From a virus, in the IMG/VR virus record IMGVR_UViG_3300021139_000144, positions 1 to 24,517 of that record: 24,517 nt of DNA. One strand, given 5' to 3'. The notes under the pieces were generated by a model. The model was given only the letters and a program-made list of their open reading frames with translations, was not told the DNA's origin and made no database searches. Of this stretch, positions 17,651-24,517 are shown in pieces (positions within the stretch are counted from its first letter, which is position 1; every line of letters begins with the position of its first letter). Position numbers and translations under genes: made by a program.

Positions 17651-17830
17651 CTATCGCTTAGGGTTATCGGTTGTATAAAACCCAGTGCCATTAAACTTAA
17701 CTGGAACTGCACCCCACACGCGAGACATCAAGGTATCACAGCAGAATGGATTGTCTCCCTCTGCGTGGATAGAACGTTCTAACTCTTGCACACTGCCACA
17801 CTTACTACACTTGTACTCATACGTTGGCAT
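17651..17830 (-). CDS. FmdB-like zinc-ribbon protein, 59 aa
   Basis: Starts MPTYEYKCSKCG, the classic N-terminus of the FmdB zinc-ribbon family, with CxxC at 8-11 and a second pair 'FCCD' about 20 residues later. I chose the ATG at 17830 because GGAGG lies 6 nt before it; an extra ATG just upstream and a longer frame to 17869 are less likely. It overlaps the sigma-like gene by 14 nt. Family members are small regulators or chaperone-like proteins; here the second knuckle is CC rather than CxxC. Confidence 0.85.
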   Translation of the reverse strand: MPTYEYKCSKCGSVQELERSIHAEGDNPFCCDTLMSRVWGAVPVKFNGTGFYTTDNPKR

Positions 17831-18461
17831 CATCAGCCTCCACTTCTTGTTGGAACGGCGACTGCCCACCTAGATGGTTGTTAAGACGGCGCAACGCACC
17901 ATCTACCTTACGATGTGCGGTGCTATCTGATACGCCCAACACCTCAGCAATATCGCCATAGTTTAACTGCTCATAGAACTTCATCTGCAATACAAGTTTA
18001 TCTTGTGGGTCTAACTTCTCTAGCCCACGACGGATATCAAACAATTGAATGATGTAGTTACCACCCTCAGCAGGGTTACCACCACCACCTACGCGTGGCT
18101 TGGTGGCGTCAAAGGTGTTGATAACATCAGACCAAACAAAAGGTAGCAACTCAGACAAACTGATAGGTGAGTAGTACTGCTCATCTCTAATCTCATAGCC
18201 CAACTTCTGTGCCTTGAGGCGTCGGCAATACTTATCTGCATTACGAGTTAAAGTCTTGGCTAATTTCTTAACGCCAATCTTGTATTCATCTGAGTCGTAT
18301 GGGTGGTCAAGCCACTCTTGTATCTTATCTGGACGCTTCAACACCCAAACACTTAACTCTTGCACTACATCAGCAACATCAAAGTATGTGTGGTATTTGC
18401 GGTGCACCTTACGTGCCACAGTCTTGGCTATCTGGTGCGACTCTTCAAACCAGTCGCTCAT
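17817..18461 (-). CDS. Sigma-70-family RNA polymerase sigma factor-like protein
   Basis: A 214-aa protein with a region-2-like helical part (FDVADVVQELSVWVLKRPDK, about 28-46) and a clear region-4 helix-turn-helix (LEKLDPQDKLVLQMKFYEQLNYGDIAEVLGVSDSTAHRKVDGALRRLNNHL, about 147-197). The Gly/Asn-rich loop at 124-134 links them. It overlaps the HNH gene by ATGA and has a GAGG site. Sigma region 2 is less typical than region 4, so it may act as an alternative sigma factor or as a region-4-type activator. It could direct host RNA polymerase to the phage's late promoters (inference). Confidence 0.8.
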   Translation of the reverse strand: MSDWFEESHQIAKTVARKVHRKYHTYFDVADVVQELSVWVLKRPDKIQEWLDHPYDSDEYKIGVKKLAKTLTRNADKYCRRLKAQKLGYEIRDEQYYSPISLSELLPFVWSDVINTFDATKPRVGGGGNPAEGGNYIIQLFDIRRGLEKLDPQDKLVLQMKFYEQLNYGDIAEVLGVSDSTAHRKVDGALRRLNNHLGGQSPFQQEVEADDANV

Positions 18462-18748
18462 ACTTGCCTCATTAGATATGAAACCATACGAGTGAGTAGA
18501 TTCTTACCCTCAAAGTATCCAAGTCTGGTGTTGCAATTCATACACAATAACCCACGCACCTTTTCGGTTTCGTGATTGTGGTCAACTGCTAACATATGTA
18601 TTTTACCATCCTTGGTTAGATTCTCTGGGCGCTCGCAGATAGCACAGACACCATTCTGCTTTGCGTATAACTCTTCGTATTCTTCAATAGTAATCTTGTA
18701 CCTGTGTCGGTAATTACTACGACGCTTGGCTTCATACTTTGCAGTCAC
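18458..18748 (-). CDS. HNH endonuclease of the endonuclease VII type
   Basis: A 96-aa protein with the recombination endonuclease VII pattern: C35-x2-C38, DHNH at 56-59, and C69-x2-C72 followed by N73. The two CxxC pairs bind structural zinc and the His/Asn residues bind the catalytic metal. The N-terminus is Lys/Arg-rich. The start is GTG, overlapping the stop of the 46-aa gene (GTGA). Likely role is resolving branched DNA before packaging or acting in recombination; a free-standing homing nuclease is the alternative. Confidence 0.9.
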   Translation of the reverse strand: MTAKYEAKRRSNYRHRYKITIEEYEELYAKQNGVCAICERPENLTKDGKIHMLAVDHNHETEKVRGLLCMNCNTRLGYFEGKNLLTRMVSYLMRQV

Positions 18749-19844: not shown

Positions 19845-20413
19845 TTAGTATCCTGTATCACGTTAATAGTTATCTTGCCACCAGTTGCAGTGTCATACTT
19901 ACTGGCAATCTGAATAGCCTTGGTGATTATCTTTTTAGCCTTTGCCACATCATCAACCAATGTGCCGTTGGCTAGTGCAGACATAGCACCAAGAGCAAAA
20001 CGCTCACCACTGCCAGCCACATAAAGATTATCTGTTGTGCGCTCCCAGCCGTAATCCTCTTCAATGCGATACACCTTGCCCTTAATAATTACAATCCAGA
20101 TGTTGTCATTAACTACGCTATCCTCAGCCTTGTTAATCTCATAGCCAGCCTCGTGAAATGTACGACGCATAGCAGGGATTAACTGACGGGTAACATACTT
20201 GTCAATGTCTTTGGTGTTGACGACAGGTGGGATAAAGTCGTGCTCAAGTAAGTTGATACCGCGCACTGCACCTGCAGCAGCAAAGACTATGTTGTTATTC
20301 TTAAAGACTTTACCTGCTGGTATGTTGATAGCAAAGCCATCATCACCAGATGATTGTGAGTCAGCACCAATGACTACCCAGTCTGGGCCTTCAATAGCAG
20401 CAATAGTTGTCAC
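19841..20413 (-). CDS. Proteasome-beta / HslV-like N-terminal nucleophile hydrolase
   Basis: A 190-aa protein starting M-TTIAAIEGPDWVVIGADSQSS. If Met is removed the new N-terminus is Thr1, and the other proteasome-family catalytic residues fall at the right places: Asp17, Lys34 (usually 33), GSG near 133-135 (Ser129 equivalent), Asp173 and Thr176 (Asp166/Ser169 equivalents, in YDTATGG). There is no long propeptide, as in HslV. The GTG start overlaps the primase stop, with a GAGAGG site. No ATPase partner is encoded in the window, so it would need a host partner, act alone, or interfere with the host proteasome (inference). Confidence 0.85.
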   Translation of the reverse strand: MTTIAAIEGPDWVVIGADSQSSGDDGFAINIPAGKVFKNNNIVFAAAGAVRGINLLEHDFIPPVVNTKDIDKYVTRQLIPAMRRTFHEAGYEINKAEDSVVNDNIWIVIIKGKVYRIEEDYGWERTTDNLYVAGSGERFALGAMSALANGTLVDDVAKAKKIITKAIQIASKYDTATGGKITINVIQDTK

Positions 20414-21045
20414 GCTGCTATCCTCTCCTCAAACCACGAATTACCATCGTGTAAGTATACATCATTAACATCTTTGTTGTCGGGCAAATGAATTATCTCT
20501 GCTTTATCTAAATCTTCTTTGATTCTTTTCGCCAACTCTTGACCAGGATTCCTGCCGTCTTCCTTAACGTCGTTGTCTGCGAAAATGAGGATACGACTGT
20601 ATGATTCAAAAAGTTTAGGGAACCAGGGCTTCCACTGAGAAACGCCAGCAACTCCAACCGCAGGAACTCCGACGATACCCGAAAGTACAATAGTGTCAAT
20701 CTCCCCTTCGCAAATCGCAATCGTATTGCTGCGCTTATGCAAGTCAGGTACGTTAAATAAACCAATCTTCTGGCCCGTAGGCCATAGATACTTCGGGGTT
20801 GTGTCATCAATAGCGCGGAACTTAATACCAACAACACCTGCAGGGGTAATATAAGGAATAGACAGACGGCCAATGGCGTGTTCGTGTCCAGCACTAGGCT
20901 CCACGACGCTTCCAAGACGGAATAAACTTGCCGCCTCCTTGGTTATGCCTCGTCCCATTAGGTAAGAGACTGCCTGTGGCGTTAGATTGTTGTAGTATCT
21001 TTCGCTGGCGTCCGTTAGTAATGCTCGCTGCTTTTCGTTTAGCAT
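20410..21045 (-). CDS. Primase TOPRIM-domain protein (C-terminal part of a DnaG-like primase)
   Basis: A 211-aa protein matching the TOPRIM half of DnaG-type primases: an N-terminal part 'ASERYYNNLTPQAVSYLMGRGITKEAASLFRLG', then 'AICEGEIDTIVL' with Glu113 and 'ILIFADNDV' with Asp157/Asp159 as metal ligands. The zinc-finger half is on the preceding gene, which overlaps this one by 152 nt in another frame. The ATG at 21045 has only a weak site (GGA 8 nt away). It makes primers for phage DNA replication with the neighbouring helicase-like ATPase. Confidence 0.88.
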   Translation of the reverse strand: MLNEKQRALLTDASERYYNNLTPQAVSYLMGRGITKEAASLFRLGSVVEPSAGHEHAIGRLSIPYITPAGVVGIKFRAIDDTTPKYLWPTGQKIGLFNVPDLHKRSNTIAICEGEIDTIVLSGIVGVPAVGVAGVSQWKPWFPKLFESYSRILIFADNDVKEDGRNPGQELAKRIKEDLDKAEIIHLPDNKDVNDVYLHDGNSWFEERIAA

Positions 21046-21262
21046 CTTTGAAATCCAATCCTTCCTTTGCCTGCACTAATGTGTATACATCTCCAAGTAT
21101 TTGACACACCAAACAGTTATACGCTTGGTTGTCTAGGTTGTATGCTGCACTTGCTTGAGCGTCATCGTGGATGACACACTTGCAAGGTATCCAACCGTGC
21201 CTATCTGTAACCTTTACGCCGTAGTGCTCTAGCACTAATGCGATATCTGGCTTAGATATCAC
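20894..21262 (-). CDS. Primase zinc-finger (CHC2-type) protein
   Basis: A 122-aa protein whose first 80 residues match the CHC2 zinc domain of DnaG primases: C29-x2-H32 and C50-x2-C53 with 'YNLDNQAYNC' between and 'DFKDAKRKAAS' after. From about residue 81 the sequence becomes low in recognisable pattern (Gln/Asn/Gly-rich) because it runs out of phase with the TOPRIM gene. The GTG start overlaps the resolvase gene by 11 nt and has a weak ribosome site. It recognises the priming template and works with the TOPRIM protein. Confidence 0.8.
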   Translation of the reverse strand: MISKPDIALVLEHYGVKVTDRHGWIPCKCVIHDDAQASAAYNLDNQAYNCLVCQILGDVYTLVQAKEGLDFKDAKRKAASITNGRQRKILQQSNATGSLLPNGTRHNQGGGKFIPSWKRRGA

Positions 21263-21608
21263 TCTGCACTGCCAGCCACTGCTGTAAATCTTGTATAACC
21301 CACGACTGTTCCAGTCCTGCCATACGGCGTTTAACTATTACATAGGCTGGTGGCACGGTGTCTAAACCTCTAGCCTTTGCATAGTTGGCTGCTTCAACAG
21401 TAGCCTCTCGCCAGAATTGAGGAAGGTCCATCTTCACCGTAGCCTTTAACTCAAAGACGTATGGCTGTCCCGCAACCATACAAACGATGTCACCTTCATC
21501 ATCCTTACCAGCAAGTCTTAATCTCTCAGCACTTACACCTTTACTCCGTAACCATTTGAGAATGCCTGTCTCAAAAGCAGCCCCTTTACGTTTGTTTGCT
21601 GCACTCAT
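21252..21608 (-). CDS. Holliday-junction-resolvase-like PD-(D/E)XK nuclease
   Basis: A 118-aa protein with 'NKRKGAAFETGILKWLRSKG' (Glu13), 'GKDDEGDIVC' (Asp40) and 'YVFELKA' (Glu53-x-Lys55), the order and spacing of archaeal-Hjc-like and actinophage resolvases. The ATG overlaps the helicase stop (ATGA) and has an AGAGGG site. It likely cuts branched recombination intermediates. The endonuclease VII-type gene nearby may share the task. Confidence 0.82.
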   Translation of the reverse strand: MSAANKRKGAAFETGILKWLRSKGVSAERLRLAGKDDEGDIVCMVAGQPYVFELKATVKMDLPQFWREATVEAANYAKARGLDTVPPAYVIVKRRMAGLEQSWVIQDLQQWLAVQSDI

Positions 21609-22432
21609 CGCAACCCTCTCATAGTGTCAGATATATGTTGTGCTGCTCGGTCTGAATACATACTCATTCTGCTTGCATCTGCCCACAAAATAACGTAACT
21701 CTCGCCACTGGCAGAGTGCTTTGCAAAACGATTCTTTACTGCCGCAACACGAAACTCTCCGTTGTATGGAAGTAATGCCACAGTTAAAATCATTTCAGGC
21801 AACTGAGATATCTTGCCTTGAATAGCCTTACGGCTAGGTGGCATATCAGGCTTGCCCTCATTCTCAGAGGTGTGGTGTAGCAACATAACTGCTGCATCTG
21901 TCTCACGTGCTATATGGTGCATAGCCTTGGCTATCTCACGAAGCCCTGACCATTCATCATTGTGCATAGAGACAACGTTCATTGCGTTATCTACAATAAT
22001 CATATGAGGATATTCACCATATGCTTCACCATATGCACGGATGGCTAGGTCAACCTCATCAAGAGTAGGAGACGGCGCAAAGTCAAATTGCAAATGACTA
22101 ATGCTGGATAACTCTTCTGTGTAAAAATCTCGTCCTTCGCCTGTGGCAAACGCCTCTTCAACTGAGGCCACTTGGTGTCCAGTAATCATCGCTGCTGCAC
22201 GGATAGATGTTGTGTAAGCATCAGTATCCGCTGATATGTACAGCGTTGGCACCTTCATCTGTACTGCCATCCAGAGAGCAAGTAATGATTTGCCAGCATT
22301 TGGTTGCCCAGCAATCATAGTTAGTTGCCCTCTGCGAAACCTAATTCCCTCCTGTTGTAAGGGAGGGAACAGGTCTGGCAGTAATTGATAATCATTAGTG
22401 CTTTTCGCTGCCGCTTGTGATAGTGACAGCAT
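21605..22432 (-). CDS. RecA/DnaB-like AAA ATPase (replicative helicase-like)
   Basis: A 275-aa single-domain ATPase: Walker A GQPNAGKS at 42-49, Walker B MIIVD at 144-148, and 'LLHHTSEN' near 189, which fits the RecA-fold AAA_25/DnaB-C group. It lacks an N-terminal DnaB dimerisation domain, so it is a short helicase-like ATPase of the type common in actinophages. The start has AAGG 6 nt upstream. It sits between nuclease, resolvase and primase genes, in line with a replication or recombination role. Confidence 0.88.
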   Translation of the reverse strand: MLSLSQAAAKSTNDYQLLPDLFPPLQQEGIRFRRGQLTMIAGQPNAGKSLLALWMAVQMKVPTLYISADTDAYTTSIRAAAMITGHQVASVEEAFATGEGRDFYTEELSSISHLQFDFAPSPTLDEVDLAIRAYGEAYGEYPHMIIVDNAMNVVSMHNDEWSGLREIAKAMHHIARETDAAVMLLHHTSENEGKPDMPPSRKAIQGKISQLPEMILTVALLPYNGEFRVAAVKNRFAKHSASGESYVILWADASRMSMYSDRAAQHISDTMRGLR

Positions 22433-22440
22433 CGTTTACC

Positions 22441-22803
22441 TTAGCGGATAAACTTAGGAGAGCACTGGTCTGGTGTGCCTTGTGGTGAAGGGCAGAACCA
22501 ACCCTTCCATTGCTTCTCAGCACCTGGCTTTGATTCACGATAGGTTAACTTACCGTGCTTGCAATGTCCTTCTGGTACTGGTGCACCTGAGTCAACAACA
22601 GTTGCGCCCAAGGCTTTAGTTGCATATGAAGTATTGCTTGATACTCCTAGTGCAGATGCTGCTGCAGTAATACCTGCTGCAATATCTTGAACAGATTCTA
22701 GTTGTGCTGTAAGTTCTGCTGAACTTGTAGCGTATAGATTAACGAGTGTGCCATCAGCCAACTTGAAGTTGACTTGTAGTTTAGTGCTTTCTGGTGCTGC
22801 CAT
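22441..22803 (-). CDS. Zinc-binding protein next to Cas4-like nuclease, 120 aa
   Basis: The N-terminal half is a beta-like region (LQVNFKLADGTLVNLYATSSAELTAQLESV), the middle is Ala-rich, and the C-terminus has 'HCKHG....WKGWFCPSPQGTPDQCSP', a likely zinc-binding unit (Cys, His, Cys, Cys). I recall similar proteins next to Cas4-like nuclease genes in actinophages, where the function is unknown; single-stranded DNA binding is a plausible guess. It overlaps the nuclease C-terminal gene by 23 nt. Confidence 0.75.
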   Translation of the reverse strand: MAAPESTKLQVNFKLADGTLVNLYATSSAELTAQLESVQDIAAGITAAASALGVSSNTSYATKALGATVVDSGAPVPEGHCKHGKLTYRESKPGAEKQWKGWFCPSPQGTPDQCSPKFIR

Positions 22804-23476
22804 TTTTCTTTCCTTCTTTCTTTAGGTTTGCTAGTGGGTCGTAAATTTGTGCCAACTGTCCTCCGACAGCGTAGCAATAGTCCTTAACTCCGCAGGTACC
22901 GCAACTCATACCAATGTTAGGCAAGAATATCTCGTGTTCTATACCGCGTTCAAATTGTACAAACATCTCAGTAAGTACTGGGATTGTCCAGCGTTCTAGT
23001 CCAGGTGATTGAATAAACTCTGCCTTACGTGCTGAGTAATAGAAGCCCATTGATGGACGAATACCAAACTGCATCTCCATTAACGAGGCATAGATACCCA
23101 ACTGTAATGATGAGTCTGGCATATAACTACCAGTCTTAAAGTCTACCACAGCAACCTCATTACCAACAGTTACAACTGCATCGGCAAATGCTCTGATAGG
23201 TACATCACCAAAACTATTATTGAATCCTATTTCAATTCCAGGTACACCCTCTGGCGATACCCAAACATCAAAGCCTGACTCTTGCCAAGCGTTGATAAAA
23301 TCAAAGAACATCTTTTTTCCATTAACATCCCACCAAACTTTATCTTCTTTGTTTGGGTTAGCCTTTGACTCACGGCCACCACGACGCCAATCTGTAGGAT
23401 TGGTGCCAGACCTTTCTTCAACTTCGGCTATCTGTTCAATGAAGGATTCTTCCCAGATGTCATCCCAGGTTATCAT
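22781..23476 (-). CDS. Cas4/RecB-like nuclease, C-terminal piece (split gene)
   Basis: A 231-aa protein from the ATG at 23476 (GGAAAGG 6 nt upstream; a TTG at 23491 is weaker). It begins TWDDIWEESFIEQIAEVEERSG, which in the family is in the middle of the protein. It carries Asp99 (FADAV), Asp112-x-Lys114 (VVDFKTG), Gln125-x3-Tyr129 (QLGIY) and the C-terminal C192-x2-C195-x5-C201 of the Fe-S cluster. The motif-I His and first Cys are absent and are found on the 72-aa protein at 24003-24221, separated by three genes. It would act on DNA ends in recombination or degradation of host DNA. Confidence 0.88.
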   Translation of the reverse strand: MITWDDIWEESFIEQIAEVEERSGTNPTDWRRGGRESKANPNKEDKVWWDVNGKKMFFDFINAWQESGFDVWVSPEGVPGIEIGFNNSFGDVPIRAFADAVVTVGNEVAVVDFKTGSYMPDSSLQLGIYASLMEMQFGIRPSMGFYYSARKAEFIQSPGLERWTIPVLTEMFVQFERGIEHEIFLPNIGMSCGTCGVKDYCYAVGGQLAQIYDPLANLKKEGKKNGSTRKH

Positions 23477-23660
23477 CTTCAACCTTTCCAAATACTATCT
23501 CTTTGGCTTTCTTTAACCCAACAATAGTAGCAGGATTGGTTTCCAACTTAATGGCTTCTTCAATCTGCGCTGCTAAATTGCGACGCATAATAACTTCAGC
23601 CTCAACAAATGACTTCATAAAAGCATCGCGGCTAATTATCTTTGCTTTCTTGCTACTCAT
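23460..23660 (-). CDS. Small helical protein inside the split nuclease locus, 66 aa
   Basis: The ATG shares one base with the stop of the 43-aa gene. The protein is helical and charged (SRDAFMKSFVEAEVIMRRNLAAQIEEAIKLETNPATIVGLKKAKEIVFGK). No family recognised. It lies between the two pieces of the nuclease and overlaps the C-terminal piece by 17 nt, so co-translation is likely. It might support pairing of the pieces, but there is no direct evidence. Confidence 0.7.
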   Translation of the reverse strand: MSSKKAKIISRDAFMKSFVEAEVIMRRNLAAQIEEAIKLETNPATIVGLKKAKEIVFGKVEDDNLG

Positions 23661-23791
23661 TACAGTTCCATTCCGATGTAGTACTTAAAGAAACTCATAT
23701 CAATACAGTACTGGTCAATTGAGATACCAATGCTGATACCTTTTAACTTACCAAAGTAAATCCATTTTTTACCTATCTTAACTTCTTTCAT
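23660..23791 (-). CDS. Small beta-rich protein inside the split nuclease locus, 43 aa
   Basis: An ATG with GGAGG 4 nt upstream, overlapping the previous stop (ATGA) and sharing its own stop base with the next start. MKEVKIGKKWIYFGKLKGISIGISIDQYCIDMSFFKYYIGMEL is beta-rich and aromatic; similar 'GISxxxxxxxxIDLxxWYIGIEL' microproteins occur in phages (recalled pattern). Function unknown. Confidence 0.65.
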   Translation of the reverse strand: MKEVKIGKKWIYFGKLKGISIGISIDQYCIDMSFFKYYIGMEL

Positions 23792-24003
23792 AGTTCCTCC
23801 AGTTTTGGCATAGGTGCAACGGCTAGGCTATCGCATAAGGCGCAGCGCATATCAAGAAAGTAAATACCGATTTCACCATCAGTATCAAACTTGCATTTAA
23901 CATTCCATAAGTCTGAACCACAAGGGCAGACTCGTACTGGACCAAGGTTGCGGTAATCCATCTCCGAACCTAATGTTGGTCTAAGGTTAGCGATGTCGTC
24001 CAT
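23788..24003 (-). CDS. Zinc-ribbon-like protein inside the split nuclease locus, 71 aa
   Basis: C26-x-C28 and C53-x2-C56 form a likely zinc ribbon, in 'VRVCPCGSDLWNVKCKFDTDGEIGIYFLDMRCALC'. The ATG shares one base with the stop of the nuclease N-terminal piece and has no good ribosome site, so it is probably translated by re-initiation. Similar small ribbon proteins (CPCGS.. W.... F..D.EI..Y..D..C..CG) are common in actinophage early operons. Function unknown. Confidence 0.72.
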   Translation of the reverse strand: MDDIANLRPTLGSEMDYRNLGPVRVCPCGSDLWNVKCKFDTDGEIGIYFLDMRCALCDSLAVAPMPKLEEL

Positions 24004-24221
24004 TAAAATGGTGGCGCATCTTCTACTGGTACTTTGGCCATTTCAAACTGATGCTTAAGATACTTTTCAGCAGCGGCGTGAAATGCAGAGCCACCAACAA
24101 ACCACCAAGCAGGTTCAGCAGGGGCTTGAAATGCTCGTTCCAATTGCCAGGCTTTGCCACAGCGTAGCCAAGAAGTAAACGAACTAAATGAGCGGTGTGC
24201 TATTACAGTTTCTTTATTCAT
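24003..24221 (-). CDS. Cas4/RecB-like nuclease, N-terminal piece (split gene)
   Basis: A 72-aa protein whose sequence 'SFSSFTSWLRCGKAWQLERAFQAP..PAWWFVGGSAFHAAAEKYL' is the N-terminus of the Cas4/RecB-like nuclease of actinophages: Cys21 is the first Fe-S ligand and His48/Glu52 form motif I (GxxxHxxxE). It stops at PPF with a clean TAATG junction to the next gene. The remaining motifs are on the gene at 22781-23476. It is the first gene of the operon and has no ribosome site; the -10-like box lies so close that the mRNA may be leaderless. Confidence 0.82.
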   Translation of the reverse strand: MNKETVIAHRSFSSFTSWLRCGKAWQLERAFQAPAEPAWWFVGGSAFHAAAEKYLKHQFEMAKVPVEDAPPF

Positions 24222-24227
24222 AAGAGA

Positions 24228-24238
24228 ATCGTAGCACA
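24228..24238 (-). promoter_or_regulatory. Putative extended -10 promoter of the replication operon
   Basis: On the minus strand TGTGC-TACGAT forms an extended -10 box whose hexamer ends at 24228, six bases before the ATG at 24221. No strong -35 is visible. The spacing would put transcription start at or next to the ATG. Confidence 0.45.
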
Positions 24239-24262
24239 GATTCTTGAGCGTGTTTGTGTGCG

Positions 24263-24306
24263 CGACACACCGATAAATTATTTTTATTTTCTGCCACGGC
24301 GTGTCG
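24263..24306. promoter_or_regulatory. Inverted 10-bp repeat, possible operator pair
   Basis: CGACACACCG at 24263-24272 and CGGCGTGTCG at 24297-24306 are inverted copies with one mismatch, 24 bp apart over an AT-rich spacer. A third partial copy (CGGTGTGT) is at 24506-24513. A short hairpin GTGTG/CACAC overlaps the first copy. Confidence 0.5.
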
Positions 24307-24345
24307 TTTTGCTAATGATGAAAAAAATTGCAACTGAGGCTACAA

Positions 24346-24435
24346 TACGAGCGTAAGCGGTGAAGCGAGTAACTCGTACAAGAGCGCCTTTAAGGGCGCT
24401 CACGAAACGGTTGGCGCGGCTATATGGATAGCGCC
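24346..24435. other. Row of three stem-loops, unexplained
   Basis: TACGAG/CTCGTA (24346-24351 with 24373-24378), GAGCGCC/GGCGCTC (24382-24388 with 24395-24401) and GGCGC/GCGCC (24413-24417 with 24431-24435) follow each other within 90 bp. A TACAAT hexamer at 24341-24346 on the plus strand could be a -10 box. The block may be a small RNA, an origin element or part of the operator region. Confidence 0.35.
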
Positions 24436-24451
24436 TAATAGTAAAACAAAA

Positions 24452-24478
24452 CAAAAAAAGCCGCCCCGAAGGGCGGCT
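24452..24478 (-). terminator. Intrinsic terminator, leftward
   Basis: On the minus strand an 8-bp GC-rich stem (AGCCGCCC/GGGCGGCT, 24459-24466 with 24471-24478) closes a TTCG tetraloop and runs straight into a run of seven or more T. It ends transcription of the gene(s) to the right of the window. Confidence 0.9.
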
Positions 24479-24517
24479 AATCTTGCTATTAAGTTTTTAC
24501 TTAGACGGTGTGTTATT

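Follow-up and report, generated by a model that had tools for sequence, protein, structure and literature searches.

How can a nuclease whose two ends are held together by an iron-sulphur cluster be encoded in two pieces with other genes between them? In Cas4, AddB, AdnA and Dna2 the cluster lies within one chain, where it fastens one end of the nuclease domain to the other. The window (the whole stretch of DNA analysed here, a 24,517-base IMG/VR virus record) poses this question because a reading made from its sequence alone proposed that a Cas4/RecB-like nuclease is divided between two genes, with genes of 71, 43 and 66 aa between; all of these were located as described, on the minus strand (Table 1). 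We consider it likely that a single PD-(D/E)XK nuclease of the Cas4/AddB/AdnA type is here made as two polypeptides that reassemble in trans, sharing their Fe-S ligands and active site.

Table 1. Features of the split-nuclease locus in the window
Feature	Position	Strand	Remarks
N piece of Cas4/RecB-like nuclease, 72 aa	24003..24221	-	N-terminal part of phrog_1870/phrog_69; Cys21, His48, Glu52
SSB-tip-like C-terminus of N piece	24006..24023	-	EDAPPF then stop; terminal PF in relatives
Inserted gene A71, 71 aa	23788..24003	-	CPCG...CxxC, zinc-ribbon-like; recurrent family, dN/dS ~0.1
Inserted gene B43, 43 aa	23660..23791	-	Lineage-restricted; position varies
Inserted gene D66, 66 aa	23460..23660	-	Recurrent family; purifying selection
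C piece of nuclease, 231 aa	22781..23476	-	Asp99, DxK 112-114, QxxxY 125-129, three Cys
C-x2-C-x5-C, three of four predicted Fe-S ligands	22874..22903	-	Cys192/195/201
Intrinsic terminator upstream of N piece	24459..24478	-	8-pair stem, T run

The N piece begins some 240 nt past the terminator and looks like the first gene of a replication operon; downstream of the C piece lies a module encoding a gp49-like protein, a DnaB-like helicase, a RusA-like resolvase and primase genes. Every junction between the nuclease and inserted genes had been described as a clean TAATG or ATGA overlap. This holds for the N piece and the 71-aa gene and for the 43-aa and 66-aa genes (both TAATG), and for the 71-aa and 43-aa genes (ATGA); the exception is the 66-aa gene, which overlaps the C piece by 17 nt (23460-23476). 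Elsewhere in the window the DNA primase is likewise encoded by two overlapping ORFs (20410-21045 and 20894-21262, minus strand), with a CHC2 zinc-finger part of 122 aa and a TOPRIM part of 211 aa that match separate PHROGs families, and a small endonuclease VII/HNH-like protein adjoins a sigma-factor-like protein (18458-18748 and 17817-18461, minus strand; assigned by eye).

That the two pieces belong to one nuclease family follows from profile searches run separately for each. The N piece matched phrog_69 (E 4e-12), phrog_1870 (E 1e-8, profile positions 14-71 of 313) and PDDEXK_1 (E 0.0038), and the C piece matched phrog_1870, an 'exonuclease' family (E 5e-34, profile positions 77-296), and PDDEXK_1 (E 4e-9). 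Because these separate matches cover complementary parts of phrog_1870, the pieces tile one single-chain nuclease without loss, and full-length relatives align as N followed by C. Against the 22-bit cut-off of PF12705 (PDDEXK_1), the C piece scores above (37.3 bits) and the N piece of the window, taken alone, below (17.6 bits), while those from phage F5 and its relatives reach 24-29 bits. Homology of the 72-aa protein to the nuclease N-terminus is upheld by the profile matches, by alignment and by residues shared with fused forms. The residues first picked out by eye are all present: Cys21, His48 and Glu52 in the N piece, and Asp99, Asp112-x-Lys114, Gln125-x3-Tyr129 and Cys192-x2-Cys195-x5-Cys201 in the C piece, the cysteine spacing being that of AddB also. 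Between them the two proteins thus hold the full catalytic set of the family (motif-I His and Glu, Asp, DxK and QxxxY) and its four cysteines, one N-terminal and three C-terminal; they depart from the family in not being one chain, since in 306 loci they are separate ORFs with their own starts and stops.

These loci come from four scans of IMG/VR, with P0001, the C piece of phage F5 and two alignments as queries, and were classified by script. The 318 loci classified comprise 306 split, nine without a visible N piece, where the contig ends just upstream, and three fused, the last being cultured Mycobacterium, Rhodococcus and Cutibacterium phages that were fetched deliberately. Some contigs were repeated between scans; the split loci, all from aquatic viruses, amount to 161 distinct pairs of N and C proteins. 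Related phages, which the sequence-only reading had proposed to search for the same split and for unsplit forms, contain both: no fused form was found among close relatives of the window's nuclease, and a scan with a mycobacteriophage protein returned 80 further IMG/VR loci which, with three more cultured phages, are fused without exception (83/83 mycobacteriophage-type relatives). Bacterial genomes searched with A3 as query gave no relatives. Both cultured, lytic phages of 'Ca. Planktophila', LanE43AprE7 (E7) and F5 (Kavagutti et al. 2023, PMC10202952), carry the split form with overlapping N and C ORFs; their records are filed as 'Caudovirales sp. ct2KA10', and the main text of that paper makes no mention of a split nuclease. 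The split-nuclease group appears to be a large set of lake viruses, probably infecting actinobacteria, in which the split has been kept over long evolutionary time, and the nearest characterised relatives of the window point to freshwater actinobacteria as its host.

A few records in this survey deserve separate mention. A second nuclease of the family was not found in 12 of the 13 records searched; the exception, 63.7 kb long, contains a second, weaker PDDEXK_1 match besides the split nuclease (G006:C1:32959-33339, minus strand). Another record (G010, 45,547 bases; locus L148) has the split nuclease twice, in differing copies some 39 kb from each other (1708-2437 and 41003-41729), possibly two strain variants joined in assembly. 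For Cutibacterium phage YGXY (PV806360.1 ~23558-23842; L085:2243-3205), the fused nuclease ORF is absent from the deposited annotation, which gives an opposite-strand ORF in its place.

Separate genes could mean separate careers: the N piece may have been repurposed for a role of its own, say as a small adaptor or inhibitor, leaving the C piece to work alone or inactive. Gene separation and a tail resembling the tip of single-stranded DNA-binding protein (SSB), found in the subclade of the window, do suggest some independent role. Yet, whether or not a lineage has the tail, all 113 distinct full-length N pieces keep Cys21 and 112 of them keep His48 and Glu52, the C pieces retain their full motifs (Asp99, Asp112, Lys114, Gln125, Tyr129, Cys192, Cys195 and Cys201 in 151/151 distinct sequences), and the same Cys, His and Glu are invariant in fused forms too. 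A nuclease fragment left on its own would have no use for His48 and Glu52, and their retention is most simply explained by an active site that both chains share; because these residues, useful only in an active site, have been kept, assembly in trans is favoured and repurposing seems unlikely. Both pieces are under purifying selection, with median pairwise dN/dS of about 0.09 for N and 0.06 for C (A71, 0.13; D66, 0.06). Along the clade, N distances track C distances only modestly (Spearman 0.38-0.42), below the correlation of C with the downstream helicase (0.74), and the mirror-tree comparison therefore gives no specific signal of N-C co-evolution, although N distances correlate better with C than with those of its physical neighbours A71 (0.10) and D66 (0.02).

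The position of the break indicates how two chains might make one enzyme. In an AlphaFold2 model of a fused homologue (L320, pLDDT 90), helices at residues 10-18, 20-28 and 39-57 are followed by a loop (58-63) and a further helix (64-85), and Cys19, His46 and Glu50 all precede the loop. The ends of split N pieces from eleven lineages align to residues 61-66, which places the break in the loop after the motif-I helix; the N piece ends about 10-20 residues past that helix and the C piece starts at the next one. Over most of its chain the fused model matches AdnA (Z 18.2), ACE1 (17.1), AddB (15.3), Dna2 (13.5) and Cas4 (13.4). Modelled alone, the C piece has a high-confidence core, and pLDDT falls below 50 at residues 187-194, a stretch that takes in the first of its three cysteines and the residues leading up to it; the drop is consistent with a missing partner, with the caveat that this model and the fused one are of different proteins built from different alignments. 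Because the break falls in a loop between two helices, the fold can form without a peptide link. We infer a complex to which the N piece would bring the helices of the N-terminus, the motif-I His and Glu and a single Fe-S cysteine, and the C piece the following helices, the catalytic Asp, DxK and QxxxY and the other three cysteines; the predicted Fe-S cluster would bridge the two chains of what should be an active nuclease.

The pieces might instead be joined into one chain after all, through a programmed ribosomal frameshift at the gene overlap or through splicing, of RNA or of protein, across the inserts, and C does lie in the +1 frame relative to N in every adjacent pair, as a frameshift product needs. 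Across 59 distinct adjacent junctions, however, no slippery motif is common to the overlaps, and each C piece has its own start codon (ATG, rarely GTG), always 8-23 nt before the end of N. Inteins do occur in some Cas4-like nucleases of C1 mycobacteriophages, but the published site is within the PD-(D/E)XK motif and not at this break (PMC5050341), and neither the end of N nor the start of C has room for the halves of a split intein. Nor was any group I or II intron matched, an Rfam scan of 20000-24517 giving sub-threshold matches only, all outside the break, and the inserted genes are selected coding genes whose order changes. A single joined product is therefore very unlikely. The two-chain nuclease, where its genes are adjacent, is probably made by coupled translation (termination-reinitiation), to judge from the arrangement of the overlaps; in the window lineage N and C are mostly 366-750 nt apart. 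Least of all is the split a pseudogene or an assembly artefact, a reading with a negligible chance of being right, for although one of about 300 loci has a broken N piece (L077:790-1014, frameshifted internally after about residue 28, the only such case seen), the same split recurs in two isolate genomes of lytic phages and, across many independent metagenomes, in 161 distinct pairs, under strong purifying selection and with invariant residues in both pieces, so that the arrangement is, as first suggested, stable.

What occupies the break differs between lineages. The inserted proteins cluster into the families A71, D66 and B43, in varying order (27, 30 and 9 members among the representatives, window included), together with unrelated families in other lineages. 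B43 stands before or after the 71-aa gene, and the 43-aa ORF is the least certain of the inserted genes. In the Planktophila-type clade the insert is a family of 107-114 aa (L122, L150 and L156) unrelated to A71 or D66, and the break has thus been entered by other genes at least twice. On the tree, adjacent lineages are nested among inserted ones and the window-type split clade is supported at 96/91; the best tree groups the Planktophila-type clade with fused Cutibacterium phages, which have long branches, and monophyly of all split forms is not rejected (p-AU 0.4). No homing endonuclease was recognised by Pfam match among the inserted proteins tested; it is possible that a mobile element once stood at the break and has since been lost. 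In phage F5 an A71-like CPCG gene lies apart from the nuclease, on the other strand (OX376641.1 26793-26933).

In the subclade of the window the N piece carries an additional feature: a variable linker, then an acidic residue, a few further residues and Pro-Phe at the C-terminal end. The tips include EDAPPF, TDKPPF, TDEVPF, TVEIPF, YADVPF and EEELPF, among others. Terminal PF occurs in 20 of 39 representatives, all in one subclade, and requires four changes on the tree, as fits one gain and three losses. Its Pro and Phe codons vary, the tip is kept with or without an overlapping next gene, and among the selected ORFs of the window and of two long relatives, none but the N piece has a terminal PF. 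The SSB of E. coli ends in DDDIPF (PMC5872125) and mycobacterial SSBs in DDEPPF (1ue1/1x3e), and the resemblance extends to the order of elements, with acidic residues, a hydrophobic residue or Pro and then Pro-Phe-COOH after a variable linker. The N-piece tip differs in usually having fewer acidic residues and sometimes a Lys (DKPPF), and in standing on a nuclease fragment: no OB-fold SSB domain (PF00436) is present in the N piece, whose 72-aa body is the nuclease N-terminus. None of 13 phage records contained an SSB gene (PF00436), so the relevant SSB is likely that of the host. Our hypothesis, drawn from this likeness of sequence, is that the tail binds SSB partners, and in the window lineage, where small genes occupy the break, it may dock the N piece on SSB-binding replication or repair proteins. 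More tentatively still, and with the odds rather against it, the enzyme could be a switchable Fe-S nuclease, its cluster divided 1+3, that is complete only where, at the forks or ends of replicating phage DNA, the SSB-tipped small chain docks on proteins that bind SSB.

The closest known systems are the actinophage 'Cas4 exonucleases' (RecB-like; phrog_1870 and phrog_69), among them Mycobacterium phage Misomonster gp78, GaugeLDP gp69 and Rhodococcus phage Harlequin gp55, which are homologous over the whole length, carry the same motifs and lie, as in the window, in a replication module near a DnaB-like helicase. They are single chains of roughly 250-320 aa, whereas the window has two chains, encoded on either side of three other genes. 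The Fe-S nuclease domains of AdnA, AddB, Cas4 and Dna2 likewise share the fold, the motifs and the placing of one cysteine before motif I and three at the C-terminus, but there all four cysteines are in one chain and here they are divided 1+3. The literature searched, many subscription papers being beyond reach, yielded no description of a split Fe-S nuclease, whether Cas4/RecB-type or other, and none of a phage nuclease fragment with an SSB-type tip; split phage enzymes are known, and a split Fe-S nuclease appears to be new, as apparently does the SSB-like tip. With a natural two-protein version the end-locking role of the cluster can be tested directly, and the site of the split reveals a point at which the fold can be cut; because the split is fixed in a large aquatic phage group that includes two cultured members, the test can be made on living phage. 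The break, colonised by other genes at least twice, illustrates clearly how a gene can turn into an operon, and the tail suggests how a split could serve to add control. Other phage enzymes of replication and nucleotide metabolism exist, like the proposed nuclease, as two reassembling chains: NrdA of phage Aeh1 (split by mobE), T4 topoisomerase gp39/gp60 and Aeromonas phage gp43A/B, with split NrdA and split gp43 reassembling into active enzymes (PMC2988022). Their breaks are associated with homing endonucleases or with an insert that is not translated, whereas that of the nuclease contains no recognisable endonuclease, is fixed in whole clades and divides the ligands of an Fe-S cluster.
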